Shown piece by piece: positions 6,553 through 31,832 of a stretch of 42,324 nucleotides of DNA. Each line of letters starts with the position of its first letter. Positions within the stretch are counted from its first letter, which is position 1. Location of the stretch: NCBI GenBank assembly GCA_023265925.1, contig JAHFSD010000005.1, positions 1 through 42,324 on the forward strand. Direction: 5' to 3'. A program made the translations under genes and the position numbers. The notes under the pieces are model-generated. The model was not told the DNA's origin. It worked only from the letters and a program-made list of their open reading frames with translations, and did not search any database. The stretch is from an archaeon (lineage in GTDB: Archaea > Nanobdellota > Nanobdellia > Woesearchaeales > GW2011-AR9).

Positions 6553-6786
6553 TTAACGGAATAACCGGTCTATTAAATACCAAAGACCAAGTCCAATTGG
6601 GGGAACATGATACATCGACATTCCAAAATCGTAGGCCTTCTCTTTAAATCCGGCAAGATCTCGAGAATGAATTTTCATCTCCGCGTCAAGACGCTCATAA
6701 TAGAATATTAACCCCATGAATGGAATCCATTCCCGCAGATGCACTTCAATGCCTTTATCTCCGCATCTACGTTCTAAATCCCCCAC
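6553..6786 (-). CDS. Hypothetical protein, 77 aa (GTG start)
   Basis: Open frame immediately upstream of an MPG-like start remnant; no family recognised. Confidence 0.3.
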   Translation of the reverse strand: MGDLERRCGDKGIEVHLREWIPFMGLIFYYERLDAEMKIHSRDLAGFKEKAYDFGMSMYHVPPIGLGLWYLIDRLFR

Positions 6787-6854: not shown

Positions 6855-7271
6855 TTAAACCTTACGTGGAAGGAGAGGAATCCTGGTAATGCCAGGTATC
6901 TTATCAAAATCGGGATCTTCGCTGATGATTTCTCGTTCCTTTTCCCGATGCATCGTGGCGAGGTGAATGGCATCACGAGGTTTCAGATTAAGATGTTTCA
7001 TCAGATGATGAGCTTCAGTGATTACTTCACGAGTGGCATCGACTAACGATAGGTGGGGTAAAGAAAGAAATAATTCGCCGGCCCAGTGCCCTTTTTCTTT
7101 ATCCAGTAATTTTTTTCGGACACCCCATACCACTTCATCATAGGTTAATACCGAAGTACACGCCTCTCGCTGCCCCTTAATGATGGATTTAACGACAGTA
7201 CGGGCAGCATCTCCCACTTCTCCTTCTTCGGAAGCAGCGAAAATAAACACGTTGGCATCGATATAAGTCAT
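6855..7271 (-). CDS. PIN-domain protein (VapC-like toxin)
   Basis: MTYIDANVFIFAA, conserved Glu in LTYDEVVWGVRKKL, KPRDAIHLATM, ISEDPDFDKIPGI. Confidence 0.88.
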   Translation of the reverse strand: MTYIDANVFIFAASEEGEVGDAARTVVKSIIKGQREACTSVLTYDEVVWGVRKKLLDKEKGHWAGELFLSLPHLSLVDATREVITEAHHLMKHLNLKPRDAIHLATMHREKEREIISEDPDFDKIPGITRIPLLPRKV

Positions 7272-8762: not shown

Positions 8763-10440
8763 GGTCAATCACCTTCCTTGGTTGTTGGGATAAAGAAAAT
8801 AGTACGAGAAGCAAGGCGACAAAGAAGAGCACTAAACTTATCGGCACTCCCCACAGTTTGGTTCTTCCTTCCACATAAAAGAATACGGCTGAGACAATCA
8901 TAAAGAGCCCCGCCAGGTACCCAAACATTTTCTTCCGCGACAGCCATTCCCATTCCCGCTCCAGTTCCTGTAATTGCTCAATTTCCAGCTGGTGGGGTGG
9001 CTCAGGCTGCTCCAGCCTCTTCACGAGACGGTGCAGATGTTCCGGCAGGTCAGCGAGCAATTCCCGCTGGCTCCAGACGGTTTTAAGCGCCTTCGTGGCC
9101 AGCGTGTGCGGCGCATAACGCTGTTTCAGGTATTTCTGGGAAAACAGTTGCAGCCCGTCCCTGACTTTAAAATGCGGATGTAATTTTAAGCCTAACCCTT
9201 CGGCCTGATAGACTGCCTTGGCCATCAGGACATGATTCGTGTCAAACACGATGCCGTATCTTGCCCCTAATGCCATGATCTGGTACAAGGCCGAGCCGAT
9301 GCTTCGTTCGCCGATGCTGGAAAGATAGGTTTCCTCCAGTATGGGCAACGCTTCCTGCTTAAAATCATCAACCATTGCTTTGGAGGTATCACGAGCCAGA
9401 GAGATGATGATTTCTAAACTTTTTTCCGCATCTTTCTCGTCCAGCGAGCGGATGAAACGGATGATTTTCTGCCGGTCTGCTTGGGTAAGCTCGCCCATGA
9501 GGCCATAGTCGAGAAAGACAAGTTTGCCATTCTGCTGCACAAAAATATTAGCCGGATGCGGGTCGGCATGGAAAAAGCCGTACAGCAACGCCTGCTCTAA
9601 GATAGCGGTAAAGTAGATCAAGGCAATTTTTTCCCGGTTGAGGCGGAATTCCCGCAGCCTGGCAACGTCGTCAATCTTAATGCCTTCCACGAATTCCATG
9701 GTCAGCACCTGCCTGGAAGAAAAAGCGGGGTAAATGAGCGGGACTTTGACATTTTTATTATTTTTCATCTCGGCTTTGAGACGTTGCGCGCTTCTGGCTT
9801 CCACTTCAAAATTCAGCTCTTTCCTGGTCCATACGGCAAATTCCCGGACGATGGCGACCGGCCGATAGGGACGAATTTGGGGAAAGTGCCGCTCGACCGT
9901 TTCGGCCAGGTGAAACAAGATGTCAAGATCCGTATCAATTGTTTTTTTGATATCAGGACGCTGGACTTTGACGGCAACAATCTTTCCCGACTTCAGCACC
10001 GCTTTATGAACCTGGGCGATGGACGCGGACGCTATTGGTTTCCGTTCAAACTGCCTGAATACTTTACGGATTGGTTTATGAAGCTCTTCCTCAATGATTT
10101 TTTTAGCCTGCTCGTAATGGAACGGCGGTACCTGATCCTGTAACTTTTCCAATTCCCTGCCCATTTCTGCCGGCACTAAATCGGGCCGGAGCGAAAGAAG
10201 CTGCCCCAGCTTGACAAAGGTCGGGCCCAGACGTTCAAAGGCATGCCGCAGGTGCAGGGCCAGCGCTTCCTGGTCAGTAAGAGGCGGAGGCGGAGAAACG
10301 CTCAGGCGTTTACGGAACGGCAGATGTTTCCGCAGCTTGGTCTTGAGAATGTAATGCCCTAAACCCTCTTCAAAGAAGACCAGCAGGATTTTTTCTAGCC
10401 GGCCGATGTCGTTCACATCATTCCGTAAGTGCTGGAACAT
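8746..10440 (-). CDS. ABC1/AarF/UbiB family protein kinase-like protein
   Basis: LGPTFVKLGQLLSLRPDLVP, KPIASASIAQVHKAVL, VAVKVQRP, GFFHADPHPANIFV, LVFLDYGLMGEL; C-terminal TM pair. Confidence 0.95.
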   Translation of the reverse strand: MFQHLRNDVNDIGRLEKILLVFFEEGLGHYILKTKLRKHLPFRKRLSVSPPPPLTDQEALALHLRHAFERLGPTFVKLGQLLSLRPDLVPAEMGRELEKLQDQVPPFHYEQAKKIIEEELHKPIRKVFRQFERKPIASASIAQVHKAVLKSGKIVAVKVQRPDIKKTIDTDLDILFHLAETVERHFPQIRPYRPVAIVREFAVWTRKELNFEVEARSAQRLKAEMKNNKNVKVPLIYPAFSSRQVLTMEFVEGIKIDDVARLREFRLNREKIALIYFTAILEQALLYGFFHADPHPANIFVQQNGKLVFLDYGLMGELTQADRQKIIRFIRSLDEKDAEKSLEIIISLARDTSKAMVDDFKQEALPILEETYLSSIGERSIGSALYQIMALGARYGIVFDTNHVLMAKAVYQAEGLGLKLHPHFKVRDGLQLFSQKYLKQRYAPHTLATKALKTVWSQRELLADLPEHLHRLVKRLEQPEPPHQLEIEQLQELEREWEWLSRKKMFGYLAGLFMIVSAVFFYVEGRTKLWGVPISLVLFFVALLLVLFSLSQQPRKVIDHGTNH

Positions 10441-10574: not shown

Positions 10575-10796
10575 CTAGGTCACCGTGCCCTTGAACAGGA
10601 CTTCATCCCGGCTTTCCTTCTTCTTCAGCCGGGTCATGTAGCCGGCAATGATGTTGCGCTGCTTCTTGCTGGACGCACCCAGATGCTGGGCAGTAATGGC
10701 CTTGTTCTGAAGGAATTCCGTCGTGAACTTGGTCCCGTATTTCTTGTACAGTTCAATCGTCTTGCGTTTGAGCAAGGTGGTTTTAATGCGGCCCAT
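10575..10796 (-). CDS. rps17e: 30S ribosomal protein S17e
   Basis: MGRIKTTLLKRKTIELYKKYGTKFTTEFLQNK...SSKKQRNIIAGYMTRLKK. Confidence 0.88.
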   Translation of the reverse strand: MGRIKTTLLKRKTIELYKKYGTKFTTEFLQNKAITAQHLGASSKKQRNIIAGYMTRLKKKESRDEVLFKGTVT

Positions 10797-10855: not shown

Positions 10856-10919
10856 AGCCCGTGATTTCTGACAAAAAAAATACTTCTTATGAGCGTAACG
10901 CAGCGAAAAATCACGGGCT
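10856..10919. repeat. Inverted repeat / hairpin directly after the orphan C-terminal fragment
   Basis: AGCCCGTGATTT (10856-10867) vs AAATCACGGGCT (10908-10919), perfect 12-bp arms; nested GCGT-A-ACGC inside. Confidence 0.7.
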
Positions 10920-11193
10920 CAGTGTATTGTCTCGGTAGGATCGTCACCAGTCATACATTTGTCAACTGAACCAGAATATGTTCCACAATATCCTCCAGCA
11001 CCAGTTCCTTCCTGGCATATTAGAACTGTTCTACCACCAACTTCATCTCCGGGTGGGGCGGGATCTGGTGACGGCCCTTTCGTTCCCGGTGCTAAACCAA
11101 TTGGTTCCTTGACCAGCTTCTGCATTTGAGCCTGATCCAGGCAATTAGCCAATGCCTCGACTTTCTGTGCCTAGGCGGAGCATTCATCTGCCT
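10919..11193 (-). pseudogene. Orphan C-terminal copy 1 of the 739-aa protein
   Basis: DECSA*AQKVEALANCLDQAQMQKLVKEPIGLAPGTKGPSPDPAPPGDEVGG... matches DECSAQSQKTDALADCLDRAQMQKFVKKPIGLAPGTKGPAPDPAPPGDEVGG; in-frame TAG and early stop. Confidence 0.85.
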
Positions 11194-11261
11194 CCCCTAT
11201 TCTGCCATTGCGAACAATGAGCCAAAATATTTATATAAACTGCACTCCCCCAGTTATCACT

Positions 11262-12221
11262 ATGATGAAAGGATTATCCCTTTCCATGGCTTTAGCAGGA
11301 CTTGTTGGCTTTAGTTACCTTACTGTTCAGCACTGCAGCTATGAAATTCAGCGTTCAGAGGCGGTGGAACCACAGCCAGCACGAGAACATCAATCGGAAG
11401 AAAACGAGCGCAGGCAACATCTTAAAAGAGACCTTTACTGGCGCTACATCAATATGCTTGAAATTGATCTGCCATTTATCAACAGGAAAGATTTAGAAGT
11501 GGAAGGAATATCCAAGAGTTGTGACGAAGAGGAGATAAAGAAGAAACACGCTGAACTGTTGGAATATATAAAGCAAAGAGAGACACTGCTGCCCACTGCT
11601 CAGAATGATGGGCCGATTCACGCCATCTGGGAGTCTACCGACGACCTCATTTGTCTCGACATCAATCTGGCGAATTATAAATATCGGGACAATCCGGAGA
11701 AATACCGGGGACTGATGGAAGATATTGTGGAGCATTATAAACAGTTGGGAAGGTTTGCCGGAGCAGCCCGGATTTATCACCATTTATCAGAATATTACCT
11801 CCATAAAGACACTGAAAAGTCTAAAGAATATATGAAAAAAACCAGGGAATATTTTCGTAAAGATTGGTATGGTGTTGAAGAAGTGATTAAAATAACATCG
11901 CTGGAAGAGCTTGCTGTCCTACGGGATGAAGATCTACAACACGGGAATTATTGGAGCGCCGGTAAGATTGAATGGTATTTGGGAAATAAGGAAAGAGGGA
12001 AAAGTCTCATTATGCAGTCATCAGAATATCAAAGATTGGTAAAAGAATCTAAAATATCTGTTGAAAGAGATGAATATCATGATGCAATACAGGACCTCTG
12101 GGGAGAGTTAATACCTTTCTACAAGGAAATAATGAAAGAGTTATGTGGAAAGAATAAGAAATGCCTCAGGGAGGTACGAACTCATGTTCCTGCCAAGAAC
12201 TATCCTCTGATGATGTTTTAA
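11262..12221 (+). CDS. Membrane-anchored/secreted TPR-like protein, partner paralog A
   Basis: N-terminal hydrophobic segment MMKGLSLSMALAGLVGFSYLT; helical repeats; paralogous to 12464..13444. TATA-like TTTATATAAAC about 30 nt upstream of ATG 11262. Confidence 0.75.
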   Translation: MMKGLSLSMALAGLVGFSYLTVQHCSYEIQRSEAVEPQPAREHQSEENERRQHLKRDLYWRYINMLEIDLPFINRKDLEVEGISKSCDEEEIKKKHAELLEYIKQRETLLPTAQNDGPIHAIWESTDDLICLDINLANYKYRDNPEKYRGLMEDIVEHYKQLGRFAGAARIYHHLSEYYLHKDTEKSKEYMKKTREYFRKDWYGVEEVIKITSLEELAVLRDEDLQHGNYWSAGKIEWYLGNKERGKSLIMQSSEYQRLVKESKISVERDEYHDAIQDLWGELIPFYKEIMKELCGKNKKCLREVRTHVPAKNYPLMMF

Positions 12222-12229
12222 GTATTCTT

Positions 12230-12428
12230 TTAGTCATTGCCCAAGCCGGGACATCCTGGCTTTTTTCCTTCTTCCGTACTTTCGACTTGCTGGCAGATTT
12301 TTGGCGTTCCCATTCGGCCGCCCAATGCAGACCCACCAAAATCACAGAAATCTCCAATAATACAATCATCTGCTGAATTGAGTTCGATCCGGGCAATCAG
12401 CTAAGGCACCAGTTTTCTGAGACTGGCC
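12230..12428 (-). pseudogene. Orphan C-terminal copy 2 of the 739-aa protein, with internal deletion
   Basis: Minus strand: GQSQKTGALADCPDRTQ.. then (shifted frame) LNSADDCIIGDFCDFGGSALGGRMGTPKICQQVESTEEGKKPGCPGLGND*; matches QSQKTDALADCLDRAQ and NSADDCIIGDFCDF...KCQMVQVENGKLPCPPL. Confidence 0.85.
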
Positions 12429-12463
12429 AAAATTGTTACAAAAAGTATTTAAAGAATCAAAGT

Positions 12464-13444
12464 ATGGGAATAGATGGTGAGATGTTCTTAAATGTAAAAA
12501 CAATGAAAAAAACATCTTTGGCAGCAGGAATAACAGCAATGCTTGGAATCCTCAGCTTCGGATGGCCTTTCTCTGGAAAAAGTTTTGGTGACGTTCCCAG
12601 CCAGTCCACTTCCAGAAAAAACATGACACAGAAAGTACGGGATGAATATATTAACTATGTTAATGGTATCACCACCAAAAAGATAATACCGTATGAAACC
12701 GATAAAATTATTAAGGAACTAGGATGCAACAGGAAGGAATTAGAATATGAACACTGGAGATACCAGACCGTATTAGAAAAGAAGCTCTATGAAAAACTAG
12801 ATAGGGGTCATGGAGCTAGACCTTTTATTAACACCATTGTCGCAATTGATGTCAACTTAGCTCTCTGTTTTTCTAAACCAAAAACGCCAGTGCATCGTGA
12901 ACGAATGGAAGACATTGTTAAGCACTACGAGTCACTTGGCCGTTATGGAAATGCAGGAAGAGTATATTACTACTTATTTGAGCTCTATAAAAACACAGAG
13001 TATCTTGAGAAAGCAAAAGAAAACTTACGAAGAGACCGTCATGGATTTGAAGCCTACCTTAAACTCACGCCACGGGAAGATCTTCCCCGAGTGCGTGACG
13101 AATATTTGGAACAGGAAGATTACTTGCGTGCCGGTAAAATTGAATGGTATTTTGGGAACCGAGAAAAGGGCAGGGAACTTATTGAAAAATCCAAGGAGTT
13201 TCGGGAAGCGATAGAGGATAGCAGAAAAGCAGTACGGGAAAAAGATTACGGATATGCTATCGGCTGTTTATGGAACGGTTATAGAATACCTTTCACTGAG
13301 GAGATAATAAGAGATCTTTGTAAAAATAATAAAGAATGTTTACGAGACTTAGAAAGGTATGGGCCCCGTAAAAACAAAGAATTTTTTACACTTAAATCTT
13401 CTTATTGCAATGGCGGGCAAGGCAGCTTTCCATTTTCGACTTGA
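12464..13444 (+). CDS. Membrane-anchored/secreted TPR-like protein, partner paralog B
   Basis: N-terminal signal/TM; shares MEDIVkHYesLGRygnAgRvYyyL and AGKIEWYfGNrEkGreLI with paralog A; TATA-like GTATTTAAAG upstream. Confidence 0.75.
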   Translation: MGIDGEMFLNVKTMKKTSLAAGITAMLGILSFGWPFSGKSFGDVPSQSTSRKNMTQKVRDEYINYVNGITTKKIIPYETDKIIKELGCNRKELEYEHWRYQTVLEKKLYEKLDRGHGARPFINTIVAIDVNLALCFSKPKTPVHRERMEDIVKHYESLGRYGNAGRVYYYLFELYKNTEYLEKAKENLRRDRHGFEAYLKLTPREDLPRVRDEYLEQEDYLRAGKIEWYFGNREKGRELIEKSKEFREAIEDSRKAVREKDYGYAIGCLWNGYRIPFTEEIIRDLCKNNKECLRDLERYGPRKNKEFFTLKSSYCNGGQGSFPFST

Positions 13445-15621
13445 ACCATCTGGCATTTTTTGTTTATTGTTGCCAATGAAGATGCTCCTGCCCACTGGGC
13501 AAAATCACAGAAGTCGCCAATAATACAATCATCTGCCGAGTTCTTCTTAGTTCCAAAATATCCCCCTGCTCCTCCACTCTCCCTCGTTTCATCACAAGCT
13601 GGAACTTGTGTACCACCTACTTCATCGCCGGGAGGGGCGGGATCAGGTGCTGGCCCTTTCGTTCCCGGTGCTAAACCAATTGGCTTCTTAACAAATTTTT
13701 GCATTTGGGCTCGGTCCAGGCAGTCAGCTAAAGCATCTGTTTTCTGGGATTGGGCGGAGCACTCATCTGGTTCTAAATTATCAGGTGAAGGCTTTTTGCC
13801 CTTCGGTTTTACAAAATTGTTGTCATTACTTTTGTCTTCTTCTTCTCTATCATCATCATTCTCATCAACTGATTTTTTAGGATCATCTTTAATAATATGA
13901 TTCTGTTCATGCTTCACCAAAGCCTGAAAGGTGTATACTTTTCCGCCACCTTTTGGCGAAGGTGCGGTGGTTGGATCCTTGGGACTAGCTTTAATATTCT
14001 CTTTAAGAACGTACGCTGTTTTCGTGCTCTGAATAGAACAAGCTGCGGCGCTTGCTCCCCGGTCTCTTCCACAAGTTTTATCCATCTCTTTTCGTGTATC
14101 CACGACGCGCCATTTTTCTCCTGCTGCTCCTGCCCCGGCATTTTTCAGATATTTTTCTTCCTGTTTGGTTGGTTCCCGGCCGCATTTGGTGCCATCGGAA
14201 CCACACCCTTTATTTCCTCCGGGGAGCAAACAGGAGATATCGGTGCACTGCGAACCACTTTGCGAAGCAGAAGGGATACACTGATTATCAGGAAGACCAT
14301 CCAAATTCTGCACCTGTTCCAGTCCTCTGGGACCAAAGAAATGATTAACACATTGCATCTCTTCTTTCAGACCAGTAGCTCCTAACTCCGGCGTCGCAGA
14401 CAAAATACAGGCATTCGGCTTATTTAACCCAAACTGTCCTGCACCTCCCCCACCAGCTAAATCCTTGGCTAAGTCCCCCGGGTTTGCGGTACAAGCTTCG
14501 GAGAATAACGAGGCAAACAGCATTGCCTTCTCGTATTCCCCTTTGAGGCCTTCTCCCGTGCCGGTGGCAGCTGTAGCTGTAGAAATAACTCCGCCCGTGA
14601 GAGAACTCCCTGCTCCAGTTAATGTCGGAACAAAGCTGCCGTATTTGGACGATTTTTCTTTTACTTTAGCGCATTTCTGTTTGACGTTGTCGATGATTGT
14701 TTTTCCGCTGGCGCCTAAGGCATTCTGAAATTCATCTTTGACATCAGTATTTACTATTTTAATCTGATCACTCTCGACGCTAAAGAGCAGGGAACTTCGC
14801 ATTAATTTTCCGTCGGGATTACTTCTCAAATCTACGCCATCCACACAAATAAACCCTTGATTCATCCAGTCGGTTAGACTACATCCCACACCATAATTGA
14901 TTGGGCCCTCCCTCGGATCAACCGCAAATTTCCAGAAATAATCCCAAACGCCGAAGCATTTGCTTTTGTTTTCGGAAGGATCGCAGAAGACACTTCTTTG
15001 GACAACCCTCCCCGTTCTCACGTCGTACGTAAACATGCCGTGGCTGAGCTGAGGGTAGTAAATAAGGCACTGTTTGCCGACATCCTGATAATGCTGTAAG
15101 AGGGGATACATTTTTGATTTCCCCGTCCACAAAGTTAAGTCCATCACCAGCAAAGAAGGATTCAGCAATCCATTAAAGATACCGCAGGATTGTTGTTCTT
15201 TGGAAATATTTTCTTTGTTTATTCTCACGTTTAGGGCTGCTTTTTCCAATGACTTTGAAAGAACAGTATCAATAGCCAGCATATTTTTCACGTCCAGGCC
15301 ATTCAACTGATCCTGCCAATGGATGATTTGAACTGCTGCTGCGCTGTAATTATGGGCAGTAAAGTCCTGTAGATACTTTTTAAGTTCTCGATTGGCATTA
15401 ATCCCGGAACGATATTGAAGATTGTCTTTGAGTAGTTTGGCGGTAGTGACGTAGGATTTGTCAGGAATTGGTTCTAGAACCTGATTAAGCTCAGTCGCTG
15501 GAGCGGCTACTTCCTGAGGTATATTTGTAATCAGATAATAGTCGATTACAATGACAATCAATACGAGGAGAATTATTACTATCTTCATTGGAAACTGCTT
15601 CTGCGATAACCTCTTTTTCAT
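13402..15621 (-). CDS. Large membrane-anchored Cys-rich extracellular protein with HExxH motif
   Basis: N-terminal TM (MKIVIILLVLIVIVIDYYLI); many Cys; VKHEQNHIIKD (HExxH, 13897-13911); Pro/Gly linker KPIGLAPGTKGPAPDPAPPGDEVGG. Confidence 0.8.
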   Translation of the reverse strand: MKKRLSQKQFPMKIVIILLVLIVIVIDYYLITNIPQEVAAPATELNQVLEPIPDKSYVTTAKLLKDNLQYRSGINANRELKKYLQDFTAHNYSAAAVQIIHWQDQLNGLDVKNMLAIDTVLSKSLEKAALNVRINKENISKEQQSCGIFNGLLNPSLLVMDLTLWTGKSKMYPLLQHYQDVGKQCLIYYPQLSHGMFTYDVRTGRVVQRSVFCDPSENKSKCFGVWDYFWKFAVDPREGPINYGVGCSLTDWMNQGFICVDGVDLRSNPDGKLMRSSLLFSVESDQIKIVNTDVKDEFQNALGASGKTIIDNVKQKCAKVKEKSSKYGSFVPTLTGAGSSLTGGVISTATAATGTGEGLKGEYEKAMLFASLFSEACTANPGDLAKDLAGGGGAGQFGLNKPNACILSATPELGATGLKEEMQCVNHFFGPRGLEQVQNLDGLPDNQCIPSASQSGSQCTDISCLLPGGNKGCGSDGTKCGREPTKQEEKYLKNAGAGAAGEKWRVVDTRKEMDKTCGRDRGASAAACSIQSTKTAYVLKENIKASPKDPTTAPSPKGGGKVYTFQALVKHEQNHIIKDDPKKSVDENDDDREEEDKSNDNNFVKPKGKKPSPDNLEPDECSAQSQKTDALADCLDRAQMQKFVKKPIGLAPGTKGPAPDPAPPGDEVGGTQVPACDETRESGGAGGYFGTKKNSADDCIIGDFCDFAQWAGASSLATINKKCQMVQVENGKLPCPPLQ

Positions 15622-29294: not shown

Positions 29295-29914
29295 AACAAT
29301 ACCTGTTTTCCCAATTCTTCCGGCATAAACGAGAGCTGCTTAAAAATCTTCTTCTCATACTGCTGCTGTTCCCGCTTCGTGGCCGGCCAATCAATCTTAT
29401 TCCGGCGAATCCACGTTCCATACCGTTTGTAAATATATTTCATCCGCTCCTTCAGCGGCACGACTTTATTCCCCAGTACCCGCCAGTCCACGTAATGAAT
29501 GAATTTAGTTTCTTCCCGAACCAGGGCGGCTGGATTTCGGGTCAATTCATCCAGTTCCAGAAACAAGTGGGCAAATTCCGGATAGTTCTCCTTCAGGATC
29601 AGGTAGGCAACATAGGTTTCTGATTTCCCGGCATACTGCTGCCGTAGCTGTTGATGCTTTTGCACTTCTTCCGGTGTGGGAATGTAATTATAGGGTGGCC
29701 CATCCAATCGTTCCAGCACCACTGCTTTCATGAAATCGTGAAGAAGGGAAAAAGGCCGGACAATCTGTAAATCTAAAGGATATCCCTGTGTCACCAATTT
29801 TTCTGCCAGGAAGACCGCAACTTTATGGACGGTCTGGCAATGGACTCGGACCGTTCCGGGGACTTGGTACTGGGTGAAGAGGGCCTGGCAGTCGGAAAGG
29901 GTGGGGACAGTCAT
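29291..29914 (-). CDS. Putative HD-domain phosphohydrolase
   Basis: VHCQTVHKVAVFLAEKL ... FSLLHDFMKAVV ... HYVDWRV. Confidence 0.6.
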   Translation of the reverse strand: MTVPTLSDCQALFTQYQVPGTVRVHCQTVHKVAVFLAEKLVTQGYPLDLQIVRPFSLLHDFMKAVVLERLDGPPYNYIPTPEEVQKHQQLRQQYAGKSETYVAYLILKENYPEFAHLFLELDELTRNPAALVREETKFIHYVDWRVLGNKVVPLKERMKYIYKRYGTWIRRNKIDWPATKREQQQYEKKIFKQLSFMPEELGKQVLL

Positions 29915-30876
29915 TGGTGTAATATTCTCTTTATTTTATCTTTAGAAGGAAGTCTGGCACTATATTCAGCTATGAAAATCTCTTTCTTTAAATCGCCTAA
30001 CGCATAGTGAACAGTTTCTTCGTCTTTCGTCTTGCAAATGATCAGTCCCACGGGAGGTCGTTGCCTTGGTCGTAATTTATGTTGTTTGTACCAGTTAAGG
30101 TAAGAGTACATCTGACTAACATGCTGATGCTGGAATGGTTCGGTCTTGATTTCTACTAGGATATAACATAAGAGACCAGCGTGAAAGAGTTCCAAATCGA
30201 CTTTATCGTAATTTCCGGCAATCAGTAGGGGCACTTCTCTTCTTCCGACAAAGAAGTCCGGACCTAGTTCCTGAATAAATCTTTCTAATTTAAGTAGCAG
30301 AGCGTCTTTAAGATCTTTTTCTGTATAGTCCTGTTGTAAATCCAAAAAATTAAAATTGTAGGCATCTTTAAAGACCTGCTCAGGTTCAATTATTGTTAAA
30401 GGTAATTTCTGTGTTATGATTAAACTACCTTTTTTAGCTGTGGTTTGGTACAACTGGTTCTTGATTTTTTGTTCTAACTGTCTGCTGCTCCACCCGTTTC
30501 TGACAATTTCCTGCTCATAAAAAATTCTCTCGGTTTTATTGTGAAGATATAACAAGCTAACAAGATGTGTCCAGCTTAATTGTCTAGGCACTGCCTGGAC
30601 GATTGGATATGTTCGGTAAAACAAGATCATATTATGTAAATTTGCTTTAGAAAAGCCCAGGTCCGTGGCCAAAGAAGTGATTAATTTTTGGCCATAGTCA
30701 GCTTTATCTTTATGCTGCAGTTCTTCTCGGACAATTCTTTCTCCTACTTGCCAGTAGGTTTGGACACGCAGGTTATCGACCGCTTTATAGGCCTGATATT
30801 GAGCTTTGGTGAGGAGGGATTTTAAGTCCTGTAAGAGTTCAGGATAGTTCGTTAAGTCTGATATCGCTTTTTTCAT
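29911..30876 (-). CDS. DUF1016/YhcG PDDEXK nuclease family protein, copy 2
   Basis: TYWQVGERIVREE N-domain; GPDFFVGRREVPLLIAGNYDKVDLELFHAGLLCYILVEIK. Confidence 0.88.
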   Translation of the reverse strand: MKKAISDLTNYPELLQDLKSLLTKAQYQAYKAVDNLRVQTYWQVGERIVREELQHKDKADYGQKLITSLATDLGFSKANLHNMILFYRTYPIVQAVPRQLSWTHLVSLLYLHNKTERIFYEQEIVRNGWSSRQLEQKIKNQLYQTTAKKGSLIITQKLPLTIIEPEQVFKDAYNFNFLDLQQDYTEKDLKDALLLKLERFIQELGPDFFVGRREVPLLIAGNYDKVDLELFHAGLLCYILVEIKTEPFQHQHVSQMYSYLNWYKQHKLRPRQRPPVGLIICKTKDEETVHYALGDLKKEIFIAEYSARLPSKDKIKRILHQ

Positions 30877-31832
30877 TGCAGTAGCCGTTTAATCTCCTCC
30901 TTGGAAGGCAACTTGGTTTGGTACTCAGCAATAAAAATCTCCTTTTTCAGACCGCCTAACGCGTAGTGAACTGTTTCTTCGTCCTTGGTTTTACAGATTA
31001 TTAAGCCAATAGGCGGTCGTTGCCCCCGCTGCATCTTGTGTTGCCTATACCAGTTAAGATACGAATACATCTGGCTAATATGTTTATGCTGGAAAGACTC
31101 TATTTTGATTTCCACCAGAACATAACAGAGCAGGCCAGCGTGGAATAACTCTAAATCAACTTTATCATAATTCCCTCCAATCAGTAGGGGCACTTCTCTT
31201 CTCCCAACAAAAAAATCTGGTCCTAGTTCCTGGAGGAATTGTTCTAGTTTATTAAGTAAAGCGCTTTTTAAGTCGTATTCTCGGTAATTTTTCTTTAAGT
31301 TGAGAAAATCAAAGTGATAAAGATCTTTAAATACTTGTTCTGGCTCTACCACTTGGAGAGGGAACTTTCTTTTAATAACCATGGTCCCCTTCTTTGCTAC
31401 CCTCTGATAGACCTTGTTTTTAATTTGTTGGCGTAAAATCCGTATGCTCCATCCATTTTGAATTATCTGCTGTTCATAAAAATCCCTCTCAGAAGCGTTC
31501 GACATGATCAGGAACTCCTGATAATGAGACCAACTTAATTGTCTCGACAGTGTCAAGACATTCGGATAGGCTTTGTAAAATTGGACTATTTTGTAGAAAA
31601 CTGGTCGGGAAAAACCCAGATCCACCGCCAACCTCTCGACTAAATGCTTCCCATAATCCGCTCTTTCTCTAAATTTCAGCTCCTCCCGGGCAACCCTTTC
31701 CCCCATCTGCCAATAAGTCTGTACTAAAATATTATCGACCGCTTTATAGGCCTGATATTTGCCTTTGGTGAGGAGGGATTTTAGGTCTTCCAGCAGTTCT
31801 TTGTATCCTTCCAGGACTGGTTGTTCTTTCAT
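30873..31832 (-). CDS. DUF1016/YhcG PDDEXK nuclease family protein, copy 1
   Basis: TYWQMGERVAREE; GPDFFVGRREVPLLIGGNYDKVDLELFHAGLLCYVLVEIK; paralogous to the next gene. Confidence 0.88.
   Translation of the reverse strand: MKEQPVLEGYKELLEDLKSLLTKGKYQAYKAVDNILVQTYWQMGERVAREELKFRERADYGKHLVERLAVDLGFSRPVFYKIVQFYKAYPNVLTLSRQLSWSHYQEFLIMSNASERDFYEQQIIQNGWSIRILRQQIKNKVYQRVAKKGTMVIKRKFPLQVVEPEQVFKDLYHFDFLNLKKNYREYDLKSALLNKLEQFLQELGPDFFVGRREVPLLIGGNYDKVDLELFHAGLLCYVLVEIKIESFQHKHISQMYSYLNWYRQHKMQRGQRPPIGLIICKTKDEETVHYALGGLKKEIFIAEYQTKLPSKEEIKRLLQ

Follow-up and report, generated by a model that had tools for sequence, protein, structure and literature searches.

Exchangeable tip–partner cassettes in a recombining family of putative surface proteins of a woesearchaeal genome

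The stretch of archaeal DNA analyzed here (contig JAHFSD010000005.1, positions 1 to 42,324; hereafter the window, 42,324 nucleotides [nt] long) carries a locus in which the gene for a large HExxH-motif protein of 739 amino acids, the main gene, faces a convergent gene for a smaller partner protein, next to partial copies of the same pair. The present study shows that the tip of the large protein, its last ~50 residues, and the C-terminal half of the partner are one exchangeable unit, and that such units have changed places between loci of the same genome. Our leading, tentative reading is that the locus is one of several which, in a single archaeal lineage, make up a surface effector/cognate-partner system with exchangeable cassettes, organized like the orphan modules of contact-dependent inhibition (CDI) and Rhs loci, in which we infer toxicity and immunity. 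The source genome (1.2 Mb, 57 contigs, 86% complete; the window locus is its contig C41) is a reduced one, and about 36 kb of it by coordinates, or 3%, is taken up by this single family of surface proteins, which recombines and is apparently private to it. Small archaea of this kind are frequently found living on other cells, and their ways of recognizing hosts or fighting rivals are poorly understood. If the pairs are cognate, natural variants (a single body combined with different tip–partner pairs; two cassettes in reversed order) make specificity testable without culturing the organism, and binding and expression could address effector/immunity or recognition specificity in such archaea.

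The tip and the C-terminal half of the partner as one exchangeable unit

At least 10 paralogous main-gene loci are present in the genome: the window locus and those on C5, C12, C3, C15, C55, C24 and C54, plus the contig-end-cut C22, C48 and C1. The count is a lower bound, because C1, which holds a main-gene 5′ end only, may supply the missing end of the C22 or the C48 gene. The paralogues are 35–86% identical to the window protein, and the C12 main gene contains one in-frame TAG. Members of the partner family occur at 14 places, one of them adjoining each main gene for which the 3′ end is assembled; in the most divergent copy, C54, main gene and partner are divergent (head-to-head), not convergent. 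Orphan fragments, comprising linker and tip of the large protein, lie at five loci (the window, C48, C5, C15 and C3), with an extra partner at all but C3. An initial annotation of the window had given the order as orphan (−), partner A (+), orphan (−), partner B (+) and 739-amino-acid gene (−), and had described a repeated unit. The order and strands agree with ours, and the repetition is real: orphan fragment 1 matches the main gene at 80% over 168 nt and longer matches join the window to C48, all far beyond chance, and the pattern extends to at least 10 loci. Partners A and B are, as it had proposed, paralogous but diverged, with 34% identity.

The association between tip and partner was assessed by Mantel tests on pairwise identity across 14 units. 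Tip and partner are strongly correlated (r = 0.80, p = 0.0001), and the correlation of the tip with partner residues 226–308 is stronger still (r = 0.88, p ≤ 0.0002). Linker and tip, though within one gene, reach r = 0.57. No correlation with the partner is seen for the N-terminal domain of the large protein (r = 0.27, p = 0.14) or for its middle segment (r = 0.20, p = 0.21). Because the value is 0.88 between tip and partner and 0.57 between linker and tip, the association breaks within the large gene and not where that gene ends. The window and C5 copies illustrate this pattern, with 90% identity in the HExxH domain, 49% in the tip and 33% in the partner. The initial annotation had envisaged conserved N-termini, variable C-termini and a co-varying partner; among the paralogues the co-variation of tip and partner was borne out, but the most variable part of the large protein proved to be the internal HExxH domain, which is absent from the orphan cassettes.

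An account without any special system, in which an ordinary pair of surface-protein genes was duplicated, both in tandem and to dispersed sites, with decay and continuing gene conversion, and in which the co-variation is simply linkage, seems to us quite improbable. Linkage of convergent 3′ ends would yield a correlation, the orphan fragments of the window are broken, and several units are flanked by direct duplications, all as this account would have it. However, the correlation breaks inside the large gene (0.57) and not at the gene border (0.88), the unit boundaries recur at one linker position, and the orphan partners are under purifying selection.

The exchange of whole units can be followed between the window and C48. 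At C48 the main gene bears tip A and is followed by partner A, an orphan linker-tip B, partner B, and what remains of tip A and of another A-type partner; in the window the main gene bears tip B and is followed by partner B, a tip A remnant, partner A and a linker remnant. The two loci carry cassettes A and B in opposite order, and the units have changed places. The underlying matches are continuous across the units: window 12333–13767 corresponds to C48 2230–3667 (92%, 1,438 nt), and window 11023–12379 to C48 1039–2395 (88%, 1,358 nt). A C48-like locus would take on the order seen in the window if the linker of its main gene recombined with its first orphan. A comparable event has been described for a Yersinia cdi locus, where a deletion joins an orphan module onto the main gene (PMC3150448).

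The large protein, its partner and their expression

In the alignment, the regions of the large protein follow one another as a K/R-rich start, a hydrophobic anchor, the N-terminal domain, the middle segment, the HExxH domain, the linker and the tip. Its initial description as a large surface protein is retained here as a putative assignment, based on a single hydrophobic anchor near the N-terminus and on numerous conserved cysteines. In the middle segment the window copy is 95–97% identical to C3, C15 and C55, yet the following 150 residues are only 21–24% identical in the same pairs. At the nucleotide level, identity between the window copy and C55 falls from 97% at residues 401–450 to 46% at residues 451–500, and against C5 it remains at 87–97% through the HExxH domain and falls only near residue 576. 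In tests of 60 triplets of main genes, each against 500 shuffles, the phylogenetic signal switches along the gene beyond every shuffle in 38; the main genes are thus mosaics made by recombination.

The HExxH motif noted by the initial annotation is well founded, its two histidines and glutamate being invariant in the large-protein alignment of six full-length paralogues. Over all copies, the domain keeps three cysteines and both motif histidines without exception; the motif glutamate position is lost only in C48, in which HAEGH (within positions 1–1179 of that contig) replaces HExxH; this paralogue may be catalytically dead or altered. HExxH is kept in 9 of 10 copies, which amounts to selective retention of the H/E/H residues in a domain that is otherwise only about 20% identical. 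A downstream aspartate, a candidate third zinc ligand, is often kept as well. Neither the large protein nor its HExxH domain could be assigned to a family by searches of Pfam, NCBIfam, PADLOC and PDB sequences, and no immunoglobulin (Ig) or other Pfam domain is found in the large protein or its paralogues. The linker and tip, as carried by the orphans, match no known domain in Pfam or NCBIfam, and the domain with HExxH lies outside this orphan unit. In the tip itself the scaffold (DDCIIGDFCDF ... KC..V ... C) is fixed, and the loop that separates its second and third cysteines varies.

The partners begin with a hydrophobic signal or anchor, in some followed directly by a cysteine, and continue into an α-helical body; C88, C286 and C292 are invariant across the aligned partners. 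Several family members give weak Pfam matches to TPR/SNAP families. In a two-sequence structural model, residues 141–300 are all-α with a block-mean predicted local distance difference test (pLDDT) score of 76–96, and Foldseek returned SNAP and TPR proteins for this model, at a nonsignificant level (best E of all matches 0.026). These data support a TPR/α-solenoid type for the partner as a predicted general fold only.

Promoter-like elements and the starts of orphan tips were judged by eye. A TATA-like box precedes about six of the nine main genes having a 5′ end, that of the window being GTATATAAG, and such boxes precede most partners, orphan partners included. Orphan tips, by comparison, begin mid-frame at the linker, against the promoter of the neighboring partner, and have neither a start nor a signal sequence. 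The frames of the orphan partners are open and under purifying selection. The ratio of nonsynonymous to synonymous substitution rates (dN/dS) is 0.23 between orphan partner A and the partner of the C48 main gene, 0.26 between the main and orphan copies of partner B, and 0.05 between the main and orphan copies of linker and tip B; thus the orphan partners look functional, and the tips conserved within type.

In silent-cassette antigenic variation, as in pilin and surface-lipoprotein systems, promoterless partial copies can serve as donors of variable segments for a complete surface gene. The initial annotation had pointed to such a likeness, and the corresponding reading is that the orphan fragments donate to a displayed surface protein by gene conversion, the partner being carried along. 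It would account for the mosaic structure of the genes, whose paralogues share near-identical tracts, and for promoterless fragments with linker homology. We nevertheless hold it improbable, since at least 10 full-length main loci, most with promoter-like boxes, stand in place of one expression site, the partner genes stored along with the segments are intact, carry promoters and are under purifying selection, orphan tip B is conserved rather than hypervariable, and the donor fragments of the window are broken. In particular, because the orphan partners look expressed, the silent-cassette reading is the less natural one.

Effector, address and comparison with known systems

In the effector/cognate-partner reading that we favor tentatively, an anchored ectodomain would display the HExxH domain and the tip, and the HExxH domain would be a secreted or surface metalloprotease acting on neighboring cells. 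The linker (residues 617–690) would provide the recombination homology by which a stored tip-plus-partner unit is joined to the body. The partner, held on the same envelope, would bind the tip of its own effector, and would either restrain or neutralize that effector or protect from the effector of sister cells; from recognition of the tip we infer immunity. Stored partners would be expressed and would broaden or preserve immunity, and stored tips would be silent.

The closest organizational parallel is with CDI and Rhs loci carrying orphan cdiA-CT/cdiI or rhs-CT/rhsI modules (PMC3150448). As in those loci, a gene for a large anchored effector and a small cognate gene are followed by tandem orphan units of C-terminal fragment and cognate gene; a conserved N-terminal part is combined with a variable C-terminal module, with which the adjoining cognate gene co-varies; a common segment precedes the variable part; the fragments have no translation starts; units change place between loci; and the orphan partner genes look expressible. 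There are also clear differences. The present system is archaeal and has no sequence relation, in Pfam, NCBIfam or PDB, to CdiA, Rhs or a known delivery scaffold or pretoxin domain; its partner is convergent and envelope-anchored; and its orphan unit is a 50-residue cysteine-containing tip only, the domain with the catalytic-looking motif lying upstream and varying separately. The likeness to polymorphic toxin/immunity loci drawn in the initial annotation is partly supported: the orphan-module architecture and the cassette switch stood, but the partner follows the 50-residue tip and the HExxH domain lies outside the orphan cassettes. No direct precedent for polymorphic toxins in DPANN or Woesearchaeota was found in the literature.

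Several observations weigh against an effector with its immunity partner. At ~50 residues the tip is short for a toxin, and no secretion or delivery device was identified, with no CdiB or other export partner seen. The correlation of the partner with the HExxH domain is r = 0.49 (p = 0.02) overall and 0.39 (p = 0.07) without the divergent copies; since it does not clearly track that domain, the partner would be an odd inhibitor of it. Physical linkage of the adjacent convergent 3′ ends contributes to the tip–partner correlation and is not fully separable from functional matching in these data. The C22 partner is 92% identical to partner B in its C-terminal part and 35% in its N-terminal half; exchange tracts can therefore end inside the partner, so that unit exchange ignores partner gene borders, and specificity, if any, should sit in the C-terminal part. 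The protease assignment has similar difficulties. Like zincins, the domain has its HExxH in a predicted helix, after predicted strands, and keeps H/E/H despite strong divergence; however, its sequence matches no zincin family in Pfam, NCBIfam or PDB, the C48 copy has HAEGH and no motif glutamate position, and the single-sequence AlphaFold model of the large protein, the HExxH domain included, is unusable (pLDDT 38).

The principal rival, which we regard as rather unlikely but worth serious attention, dispenses with a toxin and takes the pairs as orthogonal docking modules. The tip would be an address for a cognate TPR-like envelope protein acting as anchor, chaperone or receptor; at least 10 similar surface proteases would be sorted or held by their own partners, and exchange of tip and partner would re-address a protease or alter host or kin recognition. 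α-Solenoids of the TPR/SNAP type commonly bind peptides, and the partner appears to be of this type. The tip is a small cysteine scaffold with one variable loop, it is the tip and not the HExxH domain that the partner follows, and both proteins appear to be anchored on the same envelope. Left unexplained by docking are the tandem storage of silent tips with expressed-looking partners and the high variability of the HExxH domain. A related proposal, likewise doubtful in our estimation, is that of a toxin-free archaeal cell–cell recognition system, in which the cysteine-loop tip would be an address read by a co-inherited TPR-like envelope receptor and stored cassettes would re-specify the partner cell, be it host, kin or rival.

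Among archaea, the VARTIG modules of Thermococcales form a hypervariable locus in which the C-terminal part of a large surface protein is shuffled by recombination, and their authors likened them to polymorphic toxin systems (PMC8416519). VARTIG proteins are made up of Ig domains, have a variety of genes downstream and are distributed over the Thermococcales, whereas the family described here combines an HExxH domain with a single partner family, at 10 or more loci in one genome and in no other genome searched.

Distribution, insertion sites and layout of the window

Homologous loci in related genomes, which the initial annotation had envisaged, were not found: the large protein has no relative in 352 other genomes of the order, essentially only noise from the N-terminal hydrophobic segment in a 371-genome sample of the phylum, and no relative in viral contigs, plasmids or phages. 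Two pattern scans of the genome collection were also negative for the large protein, the patterns being short enough for distant relatives to escape. A partner profile gave only TPR-like noise in the order (E about 1e-3) and nothing in the viral scan. Judged by these sequence searches, the large-protein and partner families are found nowhere else than in this genome among the collections searched. A 100% match to C54 in a genome of the same genus, G001, was rejected; the 3,184-nt contig concerned (G001:C132) is a probable cross-binned contaminant, because it is 99.97% identical over its whole length, against 65–79% for true synteny between species that elsewhere differ by 20–35% at the nucleotide level.

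The genuine G001 neighborhood is syntenic, with a UbiB-type kinase gene and eS17 followed by a helix-turn-helix (HTH)-like gene and MetK. Between eS17 and the HTH-like gene it holds two unrelated small genes (aspartyl-protease-like and DUF5678; L065 4869–5455), and the locus is absent; this site may be a general insertion hot spot. C54 and its partner lie between identical 42-nt direct repeats (6882–6923 and 10733–10774), which equal the opening codons of a neighboring phosphoglycerate mutase-like gene and resemble a target duplication or attachment (att) site; no recombinase gene was noticed near the unit. A 53-nt direct duplication (98%; 1765–1817 and 6570–6622) flanks the C5 unit, and a 169-nt duplication of a neighboring gene (84%; 6608–6774 and 9974–10142) flanks the C55 unit, which suggests a shared insertion mechanism. 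No direct duplication was found flanking the window copy. The duplications at C54, C5 and C55, together with the empty G001 site, indicate that the family apparently spread in the lineage by insertion at many sites.

The features of the window locus are collected in Table 1. The main gene and partner B overlap by 43 nt at their 3′ ends. Both orphan fragments are broken, the first by a TAG and the second by a split across frames with a deletion in the linker. An open reading frame called mechanically at 12166–12396 was rejected as the homologous frame of an orphan fragment.

Table 1. Features of the main-gene locus in the window
Feature	Position	Strand	Remarks
Large protein (main gene), 739 residues	13402..15621	-	N-terminal membrane anchor, conserved body, HExxH domain, linker and Cys-rich tip; at least 10 paralogues in genome
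Hydrophobic N-terminal anchor, residues about 13-32, after K/R-rich start	15526..15585	-	Predicted N-in/C-out; hydrophobic in all paralogues; predicted helix, pLDDT 74-80
Conserved N-terminal domain, residues 41-335, with cysteines	14617..15501	-	57-79% identity between close paralogues; dN/dS about 0.2
Middle segment, residues 336-451	14269..14616	-	95-97% identity among four paralogues; sharp mosaic junction at end
Variable HExxH (zincin-like) domain, residues 452-600	13822..14268	-	About 20% identity between paralogues with 97% middle segment
HEQNH motif, residues 571-575	13897..13911	-	H571, E572 and H575 invariant in six aligned full-length paralogues
Conserved linker, residues 617-690	13552..13773	-	Start of most orphan fragments; presumed recombination homology
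Tip B, residues 691-739	13405..13551	-	Four-cysteine scaffold and variable loop; co-varies with partner
Partner B	12464..13444	+	N-terminal signal/transmembrane segment and predicted α-helical (TPR-like) solenoid; putative cognate of tip B; TATA-like box AAAGTATTTAAAG immediately ahead
Orphan fragment 2	12233..12400	-	Type A tip (..DCIIGDFCDFGGSALGGRMGTPKICQQV..); without start or signal
Linker remnant of orphan 2, frame-shifted	12369..12551	-	Abuts partner B promoter
Partner A	11208..12221	+	Intact orphan partner; real start probably ATG near 11262, after TATA-like box
Orphan fragment 1	10922..11194	-	Linker and start of another tip type; TAG-interrupted, truncated; own partner lost

Elsewhere, the window encodes the ribosomal proteins eS17 and L10, the latter with the archaeal/eukaryotic insertion domain (Pfam), which marks the DNA as archaeal. 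On the minus strand at 29911–31832, two adjacent, similar genes for DUF1016/YhcG-type PDDEXK nucleases stand in tandem, the assignment having been checked in Pfam for one of them.

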